Assembly: GCA_902769805.1 (NCBI GenBank)
Contig: CACXQL010000013.1
Span: 1 to 34,974 of the forward strand
Origin: an uncultured Prevotellaceae bacterium
GTDB taxonomy: Bacteria > Bacteroidota > Bacteroidia > Bacteroidales > Bacteroidaceae
Direction of reading: 5' to 3'
DNA length: 34,974 nt
Both the position numbers and the translations under genes were made by a program. Below are positions 2,028 through 9,498 of the stretch, in pieces; positions within the stretch are counted from its first letter, which is position 1, and every line of letters starts with the position of its first letter. The notes below the pieces were generated by a model. The model did no database searches. It saw nothing but the letters and a program-made list of their open reading frames with translations, and was not told the origin of the DNA.

Positions 2028-3356
2028 ATGAAGAGAAAACTATATAAAGCGCTGATAGATTGGAAAAACGATCCAGACCGCAAGCCTTTGGTGCTTGAGG
2101 GAGCTCGTCAGGTGGGTAAAACTTGGCTGCTAAGAGAGTTTGGTAAGAATGAATACCAGAATCTTGTTTATGTGAATTTCCATGATGATCCTGAAGCTCA
2201 GCAGATATTTCGTGTTGATCTTAAGGTGGAACGCATCATGTATTTATTGGAATCCATCACGCATCAAAAGATTACTGCAGGTAAGACGCTGATATTCATG
2301 GACGAGATACAGGAGGCGTATAGAGGACTTGACAGTTTGAAGTATTTTTGCGAAAATGCTCGTGAGCAGCATATTGTTGTAGCAGGTTCGCTGCTTGGCA
2401 CCACTCATCGTAAAGGAGAGTCTTATCCTGTGGGTAAGGTTAATCTTCTCACACTTTATCCCATGACATTCGAGGAGTTTCTTTGGGCAAAAGGCGAGGA
2501 AAGAGTAGCTGAGATGTTGGCACGTACGGATTGGGAAATGCTGCAGATTTTGGATTCTCAGGTTCAGGAACTACTACGACAGTATTATTATGTAGGAGGA
2601 ATGCCTGAGGCTGTGTTACAATATACCACAAAGGGTGATATTAATAAGGTCCGCCGAATACATAAGGAAATCCTGCGAGCATACGATAACGATTTTGCTA
2701 AGCATGCAGGCGATGAAACAGAGCGCATACGTATGGTATGGGAAAGCATCCCCCATCAACTTGCCAAAGAAAACAAGAAGTTTATCTATGGTGCTGTAAA
2801 GGAGGGCGGACGGGCTCGCGATTTTGAAATGGCGATAGAGTGGCTTGTCAGGGCGGGTCTTGTGTATAAGATTCGCAGATGTAAGAATCCAGCGATGCCA
2901 TTGAAATTCTATGAAGATTTCGATGCATTCAAACTTTATCTATTGGATGTTGGACTGTTAGGAGCTATGTCTAAGGCCAGTCCGAGACTCATGCTTATTA
3001 ACAATGGTGTATTTACAGAATTCAAAGGTGCTTTCACAGAAAATTATGTGTTGGAGCAATTGAAATCTATGGACGATTTGGATGCCTATTATTTCAGTAA
3101 AGACAATTCTACACAGGAAGTAGATTTCTTGGTGCAGACAGCCGAGCGCATTATCCCCATAGAAGTTAAGGCAGAGGAGAACGTGAAGAGTAAGTCGCTG
3201 AAACAGTTTGTGACCGTTGATCATGCAGACAAACATCTCAAGGGCCTGCGTTGCTCCATGAAACCCTATGTTGATCAGGACTGGATGGAAAATATTCCAT
3301 TATATAGTGTCCTGGGATATATTAACAAGCAAATCATTAAGGAATTAGGAGAGTAG
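2028..3356 (+). CDS. AAA family ATPase with C-terminal DUF4143 domain
   Basis: This is a 442-residue protein of the large archaeal/bacterial ATPase family that pairs an AAA_14 domain with DUF4143. The Walker A motif GARQVGKT is residues 25-32 and the Walker B region LIFMDEIQEA has Asp92-Glu93. The C-terminal DUF4143 part carries an EVDFLV...IPIEVK pattern that resembles a PD-(D/E)xK nuclease fold. The family's biological role is poorly defined; members are common in accessory and defence islands. It has its own promoter and repeat array, and its base composition is more A/T-rich than hsdM and hsdR. Its final codons (IIKELGE) mimic the HsdM C-terminus (IIKELGA), with 21 of 24 nt identical, which suggests it entered by a duplication at the hsdM 3' end. 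Association with restriction is inferred from position only. Confidence 0.9.
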   Translation: MKRKLYKALIDWKNDPDRKPLVLEGARQVGKTWLLREFGKNEYQNLVYVNFHDDPEAQQIFRVDLKVERIMYLLESITHQKITAGKTLIFMDEIQEAYRGLDSLKYFCENAREQHIVVAGSLLGTTHRKGESYPVGKVNLLTLYPMTFEEFLWAKGEERVAEMLARTDWEMLQILDSQVQELLRQYYYVGGMPEAVLQYTTKGDINKVRRIHKEILRAYDNDFAKHAGDETERIRMVWESIPHQLAKENKKFIYGAVKEGGRARDFEMAIEWLVRAGLVYKIRRCKNPAMPLKFYEDFDAFKLYLLDVGLLGAMSKASPRLMLINNGVFTEFKGAFTENYVLEQLKSMDDLDAYYFSKDNSTQEVDFLVQTAERIIPIEVKAEENVKSKSLKQFVTVDHADKHLKGLRCSMKPYVDQDWMENIPLYSVLGYINKQIIKELGE

Positions 3357-3392: not shown

Positions 3393-4376
3393 ATGGAAGA
3401 AAATAAAATCATCATATATCAGACCGAGGACGGACAGACACAGATAGATGTTCGTTTGGAGAATGACACCGTGTGGCTGACGCAAAAGCAAATAGCAGAG
3501 TTGTTTGGTACTAAAAGACCCGCTATCACAAAACACTTAAAGAATATCTATGACTCAGAAGAATTAGATGAAAATAGCACATGTTCCATTTTGGAACACA
3601 TGGGTAACGAAGGCAAGCAGGCATATGCTACTAAGTACTATAATCTTGATGCCATCCTATCCGTTGGCTACCGTGTAAATAGCAAGAACGCCACTCGTTT
3701 TCGTCAATGGGCAAACAAAGTGTTAAAGAACTTCCTCGTGAAAGGTTATGCCGTCAATGAACGCATCCGCAAAGAGCAGATAGGCGAACTGCGCCAACTC
3801 GTAGGCATTCTTGGTCGTGCCATTCAAAACAAGGAAATAGAGCCTAACGAAGAAAACCAGGCTCTGTTCGATATTGTGGTTGATTACACATACGCCCTCG
3901 ATACTCTCGATAATTACGACTATGAGCGACTGTCAATCAGCAAGACTACGCAGGAAGATAAGTTCCATGCCACCTATGAGAATGCTATGCAGGCTATCAA
4001 TGCTTTGCGAGAGAAGTTTGGTGGAAGCACACTCTTTGGCAATGAGAAGGATGATTCTTTCAAAAGCAGTATCGGGCAAATCTACCAGACCTTTGGTGGC
4101 GAAGAACTATATCCCAGTGTGGAGGAGAAAGCTGCCATGCTGCTCTATTTGGTTACGAAAAACCATTCTTTCAGTGATGGTAATAAGCGCATTGCCGCCA
4201 CATTATTCCTTTGGTTTCTCAACAACAATAGAATTCTCTATCGTGAGGATGGCTCCAAACGTATTGCAGACAATACCCTCGTTGCCCTCACGCTGATGAT
4301 TGCGGAGAGTCGAACGGAGGAGAAGGATGTGATGGTAAAAGTAGTAGTGAACCTGATTAATCAGCAAAATAATTAG
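3393..4376 (+). CDS. RhuM-Fic/Doc fusion protein
   Basis: The 327-residue protein has an N-terminal RhuM domain (about residues 5-115: VWLTQKQIAELFGTKRPAI, then YYNLDAILSVGYRVNS and TRFRQWA). A C-terminal Fic/Doc domain follows (about residues 190-320). The Fic active-site loop reads HSFSDGNKR at residues 258-266; His258 is the expected catalytic base. Fic/Doc enzymes transfer AMP or phosphate to target proteins, and Doc members act as toxins. The loop DGNKR is closer to Doc-like than to the canonical HPFxxGNGR of AMP-transferring Fic proteins, so the reaction cannot be settled here. RhuM-type genes are frequently found within type I restriction loci. No separate antitoxin gene is obvious, so any restraint may come from the RhuM half or from the small proteins downstream. 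Confidence 0.9.
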   Translation: MEENKIIIYQTEDGQTQIDVRLENDTVWLTQKQIAELFGTKRPAITKHLKNIYDSEELDENSTCSILEHMGNEGKQAYATKYYNLDAILSVGYRVNSKNATRFRQWANKVLKNFLVKGYAVNERIRKEQIGELRQLVGILGRAIQNKEIEPNEENQALFDIVVDYTYALDTLDNYDYERLSISKTTQEDKFHATYENAMQAINALREKFGGSTLFGNEKDDSFKSSIGQIYQTFGGEELYPSVEEKAAMLLYLVTKNHSFSDGNKRIAATLFLWFLNNNRILYREDGSKRIADNTLVALTLMIAESRTEEKDVMVKVVVNLINQQNN

Positions 4377-4535: not shown

Positions 4536-4757
4536 ATGGTGGAGTTGAAAGAGTATAATTACAGGATGTATGATGAATTACACTGTCCCTTTTGTGGGAG
4601 TACAGACATACAATTTGAACGAGAAGGTTTTAATTATAAAGCAGCATTCTGGGCTGTCCTTTTTATTCATTTATGGGGACTTTTATTTGGATGGTTCTGC
4701 AGGAAACGGACACTATGCCATTGCAATAGATGTGGTGGAGAGTTCTCATATTATTAA
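4536..4757 (+). CDS. Zinc-ribbon protein with internal membrane segment
   Basis: The 73-residue product has a CPFCG knuckle (Cys17, Cys20) and a second CNRCG knuckle (Cys63, Cys66). Between them is a hydrophobic segment (about residues 36-54) that could cross the membrane or form a hairpin. Extra cysteines at 55 and 61 may also contribute. The split zinc ribbon around a hydrophobic insert is seen in small proteins of uncertain function. The start ATGGTGGAGTTGAAAGAG resembles the hsdS start (ATGGTGGAGTGGAAGA), a hint of duplication at cassette boundaries. The start is one base after the previous stop. Confidence 0.7.
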   Translation: MVELKEYNYRMYDELHCPFCGSTDIQFEREGFNYKAAFWAVLFIHLWGLLFGWFCRKRTLCHCNRCGGEFSYY

Positions 4758-4766
4758 TTGGGGAGT

Positions 4767-5153
4767 ATGGAAATAGTAGTTCAAATAGCAACAATATTGA
4801 GTCCCATTATAGCAGTTCTCCTAGCCTGGTGGACGAGTAAAAGTAGTGAGAAAAAGGTGCAGGAGCAAATTGAGAGCATCAAGGAACTCGCTCGTATCCA
4901 GATAGAGGTTTCTATGAATCAAATTATTAAGGAAGTCGAAGAAGTTCATACTCTTTCTAATCAATATTCTGAGCGAATTGAAAGAGAAGATTCTCTTCGC
5001 AGATTAGGTGTTGGATGGAGTATTAATGACTCCCATGAAGATAAAGTCAGAGATTTGCACGATAACAGAGCGTTTTGTAATAAAAAATTCGATGTGTTAA
5101 TGCAAAGTTTTGACAGATTAGAAGTGTTGAGAAAAAGATTGGAGGGAGAGTAG
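4767..5153 (+). CDS. N-terminally anchored coiled-coil protein
   Basis: I chose ATG at 4767 (128 residues); an in-frame TTG at 4758 is less likely. Residues about 3-22 form a hydrophobic segment ending in AWWTSKSSEKK, and the rest is charged and helical with heptad-like stretches, so it probably projects from the membrane into the cytoplasm. No catalytic motif is visible and I do not recognise a family. It ends one base before the hsdS ATG at 5155, which makes translational coupling with hsdS likely. Together with the two preceding small genes it forms a compact membrane-directed group between RhuM-Fic and hsdS. Confidence 0.7.
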   Translation: MEIVVQIATILSPIIAVLLAWWTSKSSEKKVQEQIESIKELARIQIEVSMNQIIKEVEEVHTLSNQYSERIEREDSLRRLGVGWSINDSHEDKVRDLHDNRAFCNKKFDVLMQSFDRLEVLRKRLEGE

Positions 5154-5154
5154 T

Positions 5155-6336
5155 ATGGTGGAGTGGAAGACAATAGAAGAGGTTTTTGAACTTAGGAACG
5201 GATATACTCCTTCAAAGAATAATCCTGAATATTGGGATGGTGGAACAATTCCCTGGTTTAGAATGGAAGATATCAGACAAAATGGTCATGTTTTGGGTGA
5301 CTCAATTCAGCATATCACCCCAATTTCGGTCAAAAAGAGTGGTTTGTTTCCTGCCAATACTATAATTATGGCTACAACCGCTACAATTGGCGAGCATGCG
5401 CTCGTAATTGTTGATTCGCTTGCGAATCAACAATTTACGGGTTTGGTAACCCGTAAATCGTTGGTACAAAGCGTGTTGCCACGCTTTGCATTTTACTATT
5501 GCTTCCTTTTAGGTGAATGGTGCAAACAGCATATACACCAAGGAGGTTTTGCATCTGTTGACATGGAAGGCTTCAAGAAATACCCATTCCCCATTCCCTC
5601 CCTTTCCGAGCAAGAGCGGATAGTGGGGATACTCGATACCTTCACTGCTGGAATAGAAAACATCAAAGAGCAAATCGCTCAGCGCCGCAAACAATATGAA
5701 TATTATCGTGATGAACTCCTTGACCTTGAAGGAAAAGATGGGGTTGAGATGAAAACGTTGGGTGAAGTTTTAATTTCCTTGAAAACAGGTTTAAATCCAA
5801 GAAATAATTTCGTTCTCAATTCCTCTGAGAGTGCGAATTATTACATAACTGTTCGAGAATTGGGGATGTTTAATATAAAACCTATTGATAAAACTGATAA
5901 GGTATCAGATGAAGCATTAAAACTAATAAACAATCGCTCAAATCTTGAAGAGGGCGATGTACTTTTTTCGGGTACAGGAACTATCGGAAGGACAGCTTTA
6001 GTTAAAGAAAAGCCAAAGAATTGGAATATCAAGGAAGGGGTTTATAGTTTAAAACCGCGAAAAGATTGTGTTAATTCTTATTTCCTTGTTCAATTACTGC
6101 ATACTAATACTATTATTGATAAAATATCGGCATTAGTAGTTGGTGATCCTATCAGAAGTATACCAATGAAAAGTTTAGTTTCTATGATTATTCCCGTCCC
6201 CTCCCTCCAAGACCAGCGCCGCATTGTTTCCATCCTCGACACGTTCGAGGCATCTATAGCGAACTTGGAAGCGCAGCTGAAGCAGCGGGAAAAGCAATAT
6301 GAATACTATAGGAATAAACTTTTGACGTTTGAATAA
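5155..6336 (+). CDS. hsdS: Type I restriction-modification system specificity subunit HsdS
   Basis: HsdS (393 residues) recognises the bipartite DNA target. It has the expected two halves: target-recognition domain 1 (about 1-145), a conserved helical repeat (SLSEQERIVGILDTFTAGIENIKEQIAQRRKQYEYY region), domain 2 (about 195-335), and a second copy of the helical repeat (LQDQRRIVSILDTF...) at the C-terminus. The length is normal and the frame is intact. Residues 79-112 are encoded by an array of four perfect hairpins, described separately. The start MVEWK at 5155 matches the fossil at 3360. hsdR begins immediately after the stop codon. No second hsdS copy, inverted partial copy or recombinase is present in the window. 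Confidence 0.96.
   Translation: MVEWKTIEEVFELRNGYTPSKNNPEYWDGGTIPWFRMEDIRQNGHVLGDSIQHITPISVKKSGLFPANTIIMATTATIGEHALVIVDSLANQQFTGLVTRKSLVQSVLPRFAFYYCFLLGEWCKQHIHQGGFASVDMEGFKKYPFPIPSLSEQERIVGILDTFTAGIENIKEQIAQRRKQYEYYRDELLDLEGKDGVEMKTLGEVLISLKTGLNPRNNFVLNSSESANYYITVRELGMFNIKPIDKTDKVSDEALKLINNRSNLEEGDVLFSGTGTIGRTALVKEKPKNWNIKEGVYSLKPRKDCVNSYFLVQLLHTNTIIDKISALVVGDPIRSIPMKSLVSMIIPVPSLQDQRRIVSILDTFEASIANLEAQLKQREKQYEYYRNKLLTFE
5391..5488. repeat. Array of four perfect inverted repeats with 4-nt loops inside hsdS
   Basis: Hairpin 1 has arms 5391-5395 and 5400-5404 (CGAGC) around ATGC. Hairpin 2 has arms 5406-5418 (AATTGTTGATTCG) and 5423-5435 around CTTG, 13 bp. Hairpin 3 has arms 5433-5443 (ATTTACGGGTT) and 5448-5458 around TGGT, 11 bp. 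Hairpin 4 has arms 5467-5475 (CAAAGCGTG) and 5480-5488 around TTGC, 9 bp. All stems are perfect and all have different sequences. Hairpins 2 and 3 share three bases. The region stays in frame (HsdS residues 79-112) and still encodes recognisable HsdS sequence (IGEHA, LANQQFT). Confidence 0.9.
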
Positions 6337-9300
6337 ATGACCAACGACTATAAAATCATAGTAGAACAGGAGCACCAGACGGTGATGGCTCACTACGACG
6401 TGCAGCAACGACCGTCAGAGGGCTATCAGAGTGAGGCGCAACTGGAGAATGCGCTGATTGACCAGCTGATGGCACAAGGCTATGTGTACGTCCTTGTGAA
6501 GAACGAAGAGGGTCTGCTGCGTAACCTGCGAGAGCAGTTGGAGGGCTTGAACAATATCCGTTTGTCTGATAGTGAATGGGCTCGTCTGTTGCTTATGATC
6601 AGCAATGAGCAGATGGGCATCAAGGAGAAGACGGAGATGCTGCAAGGAAAAGGGTATATCCTGAACCTGACACTGGATAGCGGAGAGACGAAGAATATCA
6701 AACTGATTGATAAGACGAACGTCTATAACAACCGCCTGCAGGTCATCAACCAGTATGAGGAAGAAAAAGGTGCCCATAAGAACCGCTATGATGTCACTAT
6801 CTTGGTGAATGGCTTGCCGATGGTACACATCGAACTGAAACGCAGAGGGGTGCCTATCAAGGAAGCCTTCAACCAGATAAACCGCTACCTGCGTGACTCG
6901 TTCTGGGCAGGCAGGGCGATGTTTGACTTCATTCAGATATTCGTCATCTCGAATGGTACAGAATCGAAATACTATTCGAACACCACACGCTATGCCAAGG
7001 AAAAGGAAGCCGATGGAGGACCACGCAAGCATAAGACGGATGGTAACACATTTGAGTTTACGTCCTATTGGACAGACCAGGAGAATAACAGACTGACAGA
7101 CTTACGTGACTTCACGACGAGTTTCTTTGCTAAACATACCATCCTGAACATCCTGACGAAATACTGCGTGTTCAATGTGGATAAGCAACTGCTGGTGATG
7201 CGTCCCTATCAGATAGCAGCCACAGAGAAGATACTGCTACGCATACAGACAGCCATCTATAACCGTTGGCTGGGAACGACAAGGGCTGGCGGTTATATCT
7301 GGCACACCACTGGTTCTGGTAAGACACTGACATCATTTAAGACAGCTCAACTGGCTTCGCAGATGGAACAGGTGAAGAAGGTGCTGTTTGTGGTGGACAG
7401 AAAAGACCTGGACTATCAGACGATGAAGGAGTATAATAACTTCGAGCCTGACTGTGCCAACTCGAACACGTCAGCGAGGGTGTTGCAGAAACAGATGAAG
7501 GATGACAACTGTCATGTCATCATCACTACGATACAGAAACTCTCTAACCTGATGAAACCTGCCATCTATGACAAGGACGAGCAGTTGCGTGAGGTGCTGC
7601 AGAAAGAGAATATCGTACTGATATTCGACGAGTGTCACAGAAGTCAGTTTGGCGAGATGCACCAACTGATTACGAAACGTGTGAAACGCTATATGATGTT
7701 CGGCTTCACAGGAACACCTATCTTTGCTGTCAATGCTAACAAAGGCAGTAAATACAGCACGACGGCACAGTTGTTTGGTGGTGAACCTGACGAGCAAGGA
7801 CAACCTACGAAGGCACTGCATATCTATACTATCATCAACGCCATTGGCGACAATAACGTGCTGCGCTTCCATGTTGACTATGACTCGACCATGAAGATGA
7901 AGAGTGACGTGGAGCGCAAACAGGTGTGGGGCATCGATACGGAAGAGGCACTGCATGATGCGAGGCGTATCAGTATCGTCACGAACTATATCATCAACAG
8001 TTTTGACGAGAAGACTAAACAAGGCAGGTTTAACAGCATCTTTGCCGTTGACAGCGTGAAGGCTGCCATCCTTTACTATAACGAGTTCAAGAAACAACTG
8101 GCTGAGACAGGTGCGCCAAACCTGAAGGTTGCCACCATCTATACCTATTCTGTCAATGAGGCAGAGGAAGACGAATGGGGCTTCGAGGATGAGAACCCAG
8201 AGGGTGCGGAGGGACTGGACATGCAGAGCCGTGAAGCCTTGGATGCCGCCATCATGGACTATAATGCGATGTTCGGCTGTAACTATTCCACAGATGGCGA
8301 CCATTTCCAGAGTTACTATAAAGATGTGGCTCAGAAGATGAAGAACAAGGAGATAGACATCCTGATCGTAGTGGGAATGTTCCTGACGGGCTTCGATGCG
8401 AAGACGCTGAATACACTGTGGGTGGACAAGAACCTGAAACTGCATGGACTTCTACAAGCATATAGTCGTACGAACCGCATCCTCAACAGTGTCAAAGACT
8501 GTGGTAATATCGTCTGCTTCCGCAATTTGAAAGATGCGACAGACAAAGCGCTTGCCATCTTCGGTGATCCGAATGCCAAAGGACTGGTGTTCATGAAGAC
8601 GTATGAGGAATACTACAGCGAGGGATATGAAGACGTGAAAGGTCGTCAGCATCAGCCTTACACAGAACTGATAGCGTTGTTGCTCAGTGAGTTTCCTGTG
8701 GAGCAAATGGGGAATATCCTCGATGAAGAAAGACAGAAGGAGTTTATCCGACTGATGGGTGAGATACTCCGTCTGAGGAATGTGCTGAGCGTGTTCGATG
8801 CCTTTGATGCTGAAGCCAAGATCATAGGCGACATGGACTATCAGGACTATCTGGGATGGTATAACACATACTATGAGAAGTTCCGCAAACCAGACCACGA
8901 TGGCGATAAGGAAACCATCAATGACGATATCATCTTTGAGATAGAACTGGTGCGACACGACCAGATCAATATACACTATATCCTGCAACTGGTACAGCGC
9001 TATCATGACTCGAACTGCGAGGACAAAGAGATTATCGTACAGATTCGCAAACAGGTGGAGGCTAGTCCTGACATGCGTGACAAGCGTGAGCTCATTGAGA
9101 AATTCATCCAACAGATGACTCCAGAGAAGGGTGCCGATGTGGGCGAGGAATGGAATGAGTATATTGAGCGCGAGAAGAAAAAGGAGTTGGATGCCATCAT
9201 CGAAGAGGAACATCTGAAACCTCAGGAGACAGCCGCCTTCATTAAACGTGCCTTTGCCGATGGCTATGTGACAGAGACAGGTACTGGTATCGCTAAGATC

Positions 9301-9498
9301 CTGCCTCCTACCAATCCTTTCCTGCCTGAGAGTGGGGAGAAGAAACAGACAGTGATAGACAAGCTGAAAGCATACCTCGCCAAGTTCCTGAATACGTCAG
9401 AAGATGTTTACAACAAACCTCGTATGGTAGAGATGTATCCTGTCGCAGAGGAAATACCGATGGCTGCCGAAGGATTGGATGAGCCTGAAAAGGATTGA
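6337..9498 (+). CDS. hsdR: Type I restriction-modification system endonuclease/translocase HsdR
   Basis: The 1053-residue protein is the motor and nuclease subunit. It binds HsdM-HsdS at unmethylated sites, translocates DNA with ATP and cuts at a distance. The N-terminal nuclease has Asp152 and Glu166-Leu-Lys168 of the PD-(D/E)xK type (VHIELKRRG). The helicase core shows Walker A TTGSGKT at residues 324-330, the DECH box at 431-434, a TGTPI motif, and later helicase motifs around VGMFLTGFDAK and LLQAYSRTNR. The helical C-terminal part binds the methylase. The start codon directly abuts the hsdS stop (TAA then ATG), so the two are cotranscribed. Length and motifs suggest an active enzyme. Confidence 0.97.
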   Translation: MTNDYKIIVEQEHQTVMAHYDVQQRPSEGYQSEAQLENALIDQLMAQGYVYVLVKNEEGLLRNLREQLEGLNNIRLSDSEWARLLLMISNEQMGIKEKTEMLQGKGYILNLTLDSGETKNIKLIDKTNVYNNRLQVINQYEEEKGAHKNRYDVTILVNGLPMVHIELKRRGVPIKEAFNQINRYLRDSFWAGRAMFDFIQIFVISNGTESKYYSNTTRYAKEKEADGGPRKHKTDGNTFEFTSYWTDQENNRLTDLRDFTTSFFAKHTILNILTKYCVFNVDKQLLVMRPYQIAATEKILLRIQTAIYNRWLGTTRAGGYIWHTTGSGKTLTSFKTAQLASQMEQVKKVLFVVDRKDLDYQTMKEYNNFEPDCANSNTSARVLQKQMKDDNCHVIITTIQKLSNLMKPAIYDKDEQLREVLQKENIVLIFDECHRSQFGEMHQLITKRVKRYMMFGFTGTPIFAVNANKGSKYSTTAQLFGGEPDEQGQPTKALHIYTIINAIGDNNVLRFHVDYDSTMKMKSDVERKQVWGIDTEEALHDARRISIVTNYIINSFDEKTKQGRFNSIFAVDSVKAAILYYNEFKKQLAETGAPNLKVATIYTYSVNEAEEDEWGFEDENPEGAEGLDMQSREALDAAIMDYNAMFGCNYSTDGDHFQSYYKDVAQKMKNKEIDILIVVGMFLTGFDAKTLNTLWVDKNLKLHGLLQAYSRTNRILNSVKDCGNIVCFRNLKDATDKALAIFGDPNAKGLVFMKTYEEYYSEGYEDVKGRQHQPYTELIALLLSEFPVEQMGNILDEERQKEFIRLMGEILRLRNVLSVFDAFDAEAKIIGDMDYQDYLGWYNTYYEKFRKPDHDGDKETINDDIIFEIELVRHDQINIHYILQLVQRYHDSNCEDKEIIVQIRKQVEASPDMRDKRELIEKFIQQMTPEKGADVGEEWNEYIEREKKKELDAIIEEEHLKPQETAAFIKRAFADGYVTETGTGIAKILPPTNPFLPESGEKKQTVIDKLKAYLAKFLNTSEDVYNKPRMVEMYPVAEEIPMAAEGLDEPEKD

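Follow-up and report, generated by a model that had tools for sequence, protein, structure and literature searches.

The hsdS gene of the window analysed here (one stretch of DNA of 34,974 bases) carries near-perfect inverted repeats within its coding sequence, and the arms of the two longest covary at fixed codons among homologous recognition domains. We are moderately confident that this array consists of coding palindromes kept mainly by template-switch (quasi-palindrome) conversion. The gene (5155..6336, + strand, 393 residues) encodes a type I restriction-modification specificity subunit with two Methylase_S stretches (PF01420, E 3.2e-50). It lies in a locus with hsdM (304-1863), a DUF4143 ATPase gene (2028-3356), a RhuM-Fic gene on the + strand between hsdM and hsdS (3393-4376; PF13310 and PF02661), a short frame that has no Pfam match (4758-5153), and an hsdR with an EcoR124_C domain (6337-9498). 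Judged from the predicted protein, the frame that holds the repeats is open and its PF01420 domain intact, and a Pfam search of the assembly, which is 85% complete, found this gene as its one PF01420 member. An AlphaFold model of the recognition domain has a mean pLDDT of 78.6, with residues 76-91 below 50, and its ten PDB matches with E <= 0.001 correspond to nine S or S-like subunits, the Esub1 pair being counted twice. In this model the centre arm of the array falls on strand 93-99, and the flanking arms fall on the low-confidence stretch and past the strand.

Four hairpins had been described here in an earlier note on the same DNA, and all were found in the sequence with the positions, stems and loops it gave. 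On the + strand these are H0 (5391..5404; 5 bp, loop ATGC), H1 (5406..5435; 14 bp with loop TT, or 13 bp with loop CTTG), H2 (5428..5463; 16 bp with one A.C mismatch and loop TGGT) and H3 (5467..5488; 9 bp, loop TTGC). H1 covers codons I-V-D-S-L-A-N-Q-Q and H2 covers Q-Q-F-T-G-L-V-T-R-K-S-L, with a perfect core of 11 bp and the same loop at 5433-5458. The hairpins had been read as following one another in simple succession, but H1 and H2 overlap: their perfect parts share 3 nt and the full hairpins 8 nt. The coding arm at 5428..5435 is common to both, each base having one partner at a time. The stems are indeed not one amplified palindrome, as proposed, but the two main ones are not unrelated: the 5' arm of H1 and the 3' arm of H2 are both inverted copies of the common centre that encodes NQ(Q/R)F.

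The window's pairing far exceeds what the protein requires. In synonymous-codon shuffles, which hold the protein fixed, H1 forms a mean of 8.4/14 pairs against 14/14 in the window, and H2 a mean of 7.5/16 against 15/16; 0/2000 shuffles reach either value. The claim that four hairpins in a row are not chance stands for the three strong ones and not for the 5-bp stem of H0, which is unremarkable alone; a 9-bp hairpin lies over the H0 codons in two homologs (L051 and L110). H1-H3 supply three of the five perfect hairpins of at least 8 bp (loops 2-8) in the window, and the predicted RNA fold of the region has z = -6.05, with 0/200 shuffles as good. The best other match to H1-H3 within the window is no better than for shuffled queries. 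The H1 pattern occurs in 2/393 genomes of the order, both times within the same recognition domain, and viral contigs hold no exact copy of it. H3 has 9/9 pairs in the nearest relative (L032) and 7/9 in L033; some other homologs carry unrelated hairpins near its codons, and single homologs carry unrelated ones downstream, for example one of 15 bp in L040. The pairing is shared by the named isolates Hoylesella oralis ATCC 33269 (L054; H1 13/14, H2 15/16) and Segatella baroniae DSM 16972 (L057; H1 14/14, H2 14/16), so that an assembly artefact, which the earlier note had named as a possible undoing of its idea, is unlikely.

One scan of a species genome collection found 104 relatives, 80 of which were kept; adding three loci from the family, four from plasmids and the window itself gave a comparison of 88 rows at >= 45% identity, from which two copies of the window (L001 and L002) had been removed. 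H1 has at least 12/14 pairs in 36 of the 88 rows, with p <= 0.003 against the synonymous-codon null in each, and the remaining 52 rows have 2-10 pairs. Twenty-seven rows read the outer arm of H2 as R-(K/E)-S, and 26 of them have at least 13/16 H2 pairs (p <= 0.007 in each of the 26). When rows are chosen by protein only, 36/46 of those reading D.[LM].NQ have at least 12/14 H1 pairs, and 0/42 of the others do. By record titles, many of them of MAGs whose labels may be wrong, the 36 H1 rows span seven phyla: Bacteroidota, Bacillota, Campylobacterota, Elusimicrobiota, Rhodothermota, Thermodesulfobacteriota (Dadabacteria) and Saccharimonadota. In a Holosporales row (L038) H2 is present and H1 is not.

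A tree built without the hairpin segment, from few columns and with 28/84 inner branches open, places 39 hairpin-free rows on one supported branch (99/93); outside it, 36/49 rows have H1 and 13/49 fall below 12 pairs. In one homolog (L117) the domain sits in the second half of another hsdS and both hairpins are retained. The 37-codon segment has the same length in most rows with or without hairpins (L058, L089, L110 and L111 differ by a few codons), which agrees with the earlier view that the array is not an in-frame insertion like the Rickettsia elements. We further note that relatives occur in 353 plasmid records and one phage record; the four plasmid loci examined have no hairpins, and among viral contigs 36 stretches fit a pattern, none encoding a relative of the HsdS domain. 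The hairpins are inherited and kept in repair.

Independent variation of the arms would have spoken against a dedicated element, and the homolog alignment shows that the arms covary. The 26 rows used (25 distinct) were chosen for pairing (H1 >= 10, H2 >= 13), which inflates the paired percentage; choosing rows by protein alone instead costs one row of 27. Among the 25 distinct segments, 97.1% of H1 and inner H2 cells are paired, against 88.8% in shuffles and 24-40% with the partners slid, and ten pairs are altered on both sides, a number reached by 0/500 shuffles. Over the whole of H2, 91.8% of cells are paired against 81.5% in shuffles, and 0/500 shuffles reach either the paired cells or the covariation score; whole H2 is not exceptional in both-side-changed pairs (59/500 shuffles) or in pair types (138/500). 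The H2 core residues vary freely with pairing intact (GLVT, AMTR, ALII, NLKI, FLTK).

In the RKS frame the outer arm of H2 reads CGT AAA TCG. In nine rows (L038, L052, L058, L083, L084, L089, L109, L110 and L111) the arm GTAAATCG or a variant is read one frame off, as V-N-(R/C), that is GTA AAT CG or variants (VNR, VNC). Being read in two frames among homologs, this arm has been copied as DNA. Base 5430 can pair with 5411 or 5461 but not with both at once, and all three covary: in 26 rows the triple 5411/5430/5461 is found as T,A,T (11 rows), C,G,C (13) and T,G,C (2). The triple 5409/5432/5459 behaves otherwise, with 5459 always C and G at 5432 opposite T at 5409 in 8/11 rows. Here the H1 T.G mismatch is left in 8 of 11 G rows despite an available synonymous repair, which counts against conversion.

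The array is one case of a wider pattern that also includes RhuM, KilA-N and DUF1016_N genes. Clustering in hsdS at large, as the earlier note had suggested looking for, is not seen: in 29 other hsdS loci of Bacteroidota the middle frames hold 0 hairpins of at least 9 bp against 1.75 expected, and those of 29 hsdM loci of the phylum hold 0 against 1.45. These loci are the best-scoring matches from 99 and 61 genomes rather than random picks; in each locus, scoring took the longest frame that covers the middle, and the window's own loci (L173, L187, L214) were left out. Ordinary genes are at chance, with 15, 8, 2 and 2 hairpins of >= 9, 10, 11 and 12 bp against 15.0, 5.8, 1.8 and 0.4 expected (279 ORFs of a same-family genome).

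RhuM (PF13310) loci carry hairpins of at least 10 bp in 18/29 cases against 0.35 expected, at one place; the set includes one locus (L179) whose scored frame is not RhuM. Many RhuM genes (L151-L180, L241-L320) have a covarying coding hairpin of 11-14 bp over TVRNFRTVQ and variants. Among 100 distinct regions, taken from genomes and from viral contigs, 95 form 9/11 pairs or more, against 19% in the null, and 46 form all 11, against 0.5%. Pairing is graded here (46, 29 and 20 regions with 11, 10 and 9 of 11 pairs), which weighs against conversion; in H1, 36 rows lie at 12-14/14 and the other 52 at 2-10. In the window's RhuM-Fic gene (row L173) the stretch at about 3578-3602 forms 9/11 pairs on the axis of the RhuM palindromes, with two A-C type mismatches, a score that 19% of null regions also reach. 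Of the 100 regions, 89 have 9 or more pairs on the shared axis; in these the coupled residue pairs are A-A 24, S-E 23, R-R 16, K-L 15 and E-S 8, and the loops are AAA 35, ATT 23, AAT 22, TTT 8 and GAA 1. In these rows, chosen for >= 9 pairs, pairs 1-5 from the loop show 3 non-pairs in 445 cells with 2 to 4 pair types each. The loops are nearly closed under inversion, a possible mark of template switching that was not counted, as ATT and AAT differ in context by a single base. The idea that the protein binds its own palindrome as an operator, with a second copy near, was likewise dropped (71 RhuM loci; the best other match scores 16.1 against 15.8 in mirrored shuffles).

KilA-N loci have hairpins of at least 10 bp on one axis in 12/29 cases against 0.3 expected, and all 13 rows with the motif have at least 9/11 pairs when the axis is searched freely, a count that has no null. 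Their hairpins (L064, L096, L322-L339, L349) are 12-19 bp long, NPDFKPVEFDGFR and variants, with changing sequence. Coding hairpins of 10-18 bp are found in 10/30 DUF1016_N loci (L351-L380) against 0.4 expected, 7/11 of them within residues 97-118 and the others elsewhere; several lie over an LxQxVAxL-like segment, likely also in L124, L204, L227 and L327. A second recurrent HsdS hairpin lies in the central region over E-I-V-(R/K)-I-L-D-N-F (GTGAAATTGTCC...GGACAATTTCAC and variants), at L062 1655-1685, L085 449-479, L092 1655-1685, L099 1656-1684, L058 1019-1047 and L079 1078-1104.

Neighbouring genes are also in excess for hairpins of at least 11 bp: 4 against 0.2 expected in 195 ORFs beside RhuM, 9 against 1.2 in 331 ORFs around hsdS loci, and 20 against 2.0 in 433 ORFs around RhuM, hsdS, hsdM and KilA-N loci. 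A general template-switch excess in phage genes was considered for the first set and discarded, since we read the four hairpins as one in a RhuM gene missed by the filter (L260), two in what look like antisense frames of RhuM (L245 and L249) and the HsdS central hairpin (L290). Part of the excess in the two larger sets comes from missed RhuM, KilA-N and DUF1016_N-like genes and from repeats in doubtful frames. The excess around these loci indicates that the list of hairpin families is not closed. Among the ORFs around hsdS loci (L003-L130), the named families do not account for the hairpins at L011 678-701, L026 640-666 and L091 314-347. Identical hairpins repeated in non-coding or doubtful frames (L146; L100 1814-2583; L204), comprising the CTTTTTCTTTCG series, GTAGAGACGCAAA and GTAGAGACAACGC, are probably dispersed repeats. 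Single 12-bp coding hairpins occur at L150 17207-17771 and L148 160-916, in genes that by eye we take to be pth and an IS3-like transposase.

One clustered change that perfects a stem was found between near-identical sequences, in RhuM; none was found in hsdS, where the rows compared include no near-identical alleles. Over 1,009 columns the RhuM sequence L299 shows 5 base differences from L293, L296 and L298, and the flanks outside the gene are unrelated. Two of the five, at locus bases 986-987, form a tandem change of TG to AT: GTGGTTGTTGCAA becomes GTGGTATTTGCAA, which is exactly complementary to the 3' arm, itself unchanged. Both mismatches of the 14-bp palindrome are thereby gone, the longest perfect stem through these bases grows from 3 to 14 bp, and a residue is altered from V to F. 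The perfect form looks derived, since TG is present in L294, L295, L297, L300, L302 and L303. A search for alleles of this event in E. coli gave no match. The same pair has a second tandem change, CT to AA at 1691-1692, that forms no hairpin, so tandem changes in RhuM need not be template switches. The TG to AT change fits quasi-palindrome correction as seen in E. coli (PMC7202029) and as proposed for Nematomorpha (PMC6649704). We infer that it was a template switch and that the same process acts at hsdS.

In such a conversion, a nascent DNA strand would fold back at a short-loop hairpin, copy the opposite arm and return, so that a mutation in one arm would either be lost or be transferred to the opposite one. 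At hsdS the central arm encodes the conserved NQ(Q/R)FT segment of the recognition domain, and both flanking arms are inverted copies of it over change-tolerant codons. The palindromes move with the recognition domain across phyla, once into the second half of another HsdS, and would persist where residues may vary. Conversion accounts for the near-perfect pairing, the cross-frame copying of an arm, the variable loops, the triple change under exclusive pairing and the RhuM change. Of the three ideas first put forward for the array it is the best supported, but the perfecting event was seen in RhuM and not in hsdS. Its weight is reduced by the second RhuM tandem change and by uneven G-U counts. 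If conversion trapped any chance hairpin, an excess would be expected everywhere, and ordinary genes, hsdS and hsdM show none; the 39 hairpin-free rows likewise count against it. Conversion does not explain the lack of excess in ordinary genes or the long retention by few families. Either linked residue changes are tolerated, or even of benefit, at the retaining sites, or the DNA structure serves a function. That such changes are tolerated or useful would, we infer, explain why few families keep palindromes.

In the main rival reading, selection acts on the palindrome as a DNA-level structure or site (a cruciform, a single-strand hairpin or a device for changing two residues at a time in DNA-recognition segments), with conversion at most supplying mutations. 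We regard this as possible, though rather less than an even prospect. It would suit the confinement of the hairpins to few families, with ordinary genes at chance, and these families, in part by their names, we take to be DNA-binding. It would also suit their retention in seven phyla, the near-absence of non-pairs next to the RhuM loop in rows chosen for pairing, and the turnover of the H2 core GLVT, where 3/4 residues differ in L032 and 4/4 in L033 despite overall identities of 86 and 81%. However, loop size, stem length, frame and presence all differ, 13 of the 49 rows that lie off the hairpin-free branch have fewer than 12 H1 pairs, family scans found no reader of the structure, and a nearby second copy of the sequence is absent. 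Control of HsdS expression or translation by mRNA structure, one of the ideas of the earlier note, is improbable. The predicted RNA fold is highly stable, and the H1 loop CTTG is closed by G-C; a CTTG loop closed in this way is a stable RNA tetraloop. A kept mRNA structure should show G.U as the favoured non-pair on the coding strand, and in distinct rows (16 with H1 >= 12, 22 with H2 >= 13) H1 alone does lean this way (G.T 9, A.C 4, other 3). H2 leans oppositely (G.T 1, A.C 17, other 11) and RhuM is even (G.T 16, A.C 15, other 38). Base 5432 in the common arm supplies 7/9 of the H1 G.T and 12/17 of the H2 A.C non-pairs. With hsdS and RhuM combined there is no one-strand covariation tolerant of G-U. 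Moreover, the outer H2 pairs covary though H1 holds that arm in the predicted fold, a scan of 4700-6400 found no Rfam family at gathering score (sub-threshold matches only), and the hairpins are retained with the domain in the second half of the L117 hsdS. H1 alone would fit mRNA, H2 would not and RhuM is even; we read the hairpin signal as DNA-level or mutational.

That the array is the substrate of a structure-specific recombinase, as raised earlier, or of a retroelement that reshuffles recognition domains is very unlikely, and a dedicated recombinase substrate has gained no positive evidence. At the targets of diversity-generating retroelements, hairpins are known whose structure is needed but whose stem sequence is not (PMC3240598, available text). 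Against this, the assembly has one hsdS, and the hairpins lie mid-domain with variable geometry. Most arms are not GC-rich, and the loops CTTG (or TT), TGGT and TTGC do not fit the GC-rich 7-10 bp stem with a 4-nt GRNA loop of those targets. Chance, protein constraint alone or an assembly artefact is scarcely credible. The residues do account for about 8 pairs in each of the window's long stems, but synonymous shuffles never reach the window's pairing, the null is rejected in each of the 36 H1 and 26 H2 rows, and isolates and MAGs agree.

Covariation usually counts as proof that an RNA or DNA structure is functional. In these genes it lies at fixed codons of several protein families, with coupled amino acids that follow no evident chemical logic, as in the RhuM residue pairs. 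Should conversion be responsible, these families would record template switching in nature and would mislead structure prediction that relies on coevolution; should selection be responsible, they would point to an unknown DNA-level function or to a diversifier in restriction and phage genes. A speculative and somewhat doubtful extension is that defence and phage DNA-binding proteins retain short palindromes over their DNA-recognition segments on purpose, as a diversifier built into the gene. If true, hairpin template switching would alter linked residues at once, the fold would survive, and any pairing arm sequence would suffice.

In phase-variable inverting hsdS loci, repeats in separate hsdS genes recombine. 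The array resembles these in having inverted repeats in hsdS, but its arms are 2-4 nt apart within a single gene; the several hsdS with common inverted repeats of an inverting shufflon are not seen, the 85%-complete assembly having one hsdS. Rickettsia palindromic elements are palindromic DNA in open reading frames. The hsdS hairpins differ from them in adding no residues, having no further copies in the window and keeping their arm identity, which in the Rickettsia elements is lost over time, as stated in the available part of PMC6649704. That text also describes Nematomorpha mitochondrial genes, where perfect inverted repeats with identical arms lie in genes that still encode working proteins and repeat conversion by template switching has been proposed (PMC6649704). 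Both systems have inverted repeats inside genes with arm identity kept. The Nematomorpha palindromes, in the same portion of that report, are up to 284 bp, scattered, and gained or lost among four species of one phylum, whereas those described here measure about 9-19 bp, have short loops and occupy fixed codons in certain gene families of bacteria and phages, across phyla.

The process itself also has precedents. Quasi-palindrome correction or template-switch mutation is described in E. coli reporters (PMC7202029) and yeast coding genes (PMC8604942), and hairpins made and maintained by template switching are described in RNA genes (PMC8794818), in each case in the text available. As in these reports, a clustered change perfects an imperfect hairpin in RhuM L299. 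Coding palindromes and template-switch conversion are already known as a kind. A description of coding palindromes in hsdS, RhuM or KilA-N was not found in the literature searched (titles, abstract starts and top matches, with subscription journals mostly uncovered), and as far as this search reaches the fixed-position, cross-phylum form in bacterial and phage genes is new. The quasi-palindrome reports, in their available parts, concern single events or RNA genes (PMC7202029, PMC8604942, PMC8794818), whereas here a coding palindrome persists as a protein family spreads, even though the palindrome's own sequence turns over.
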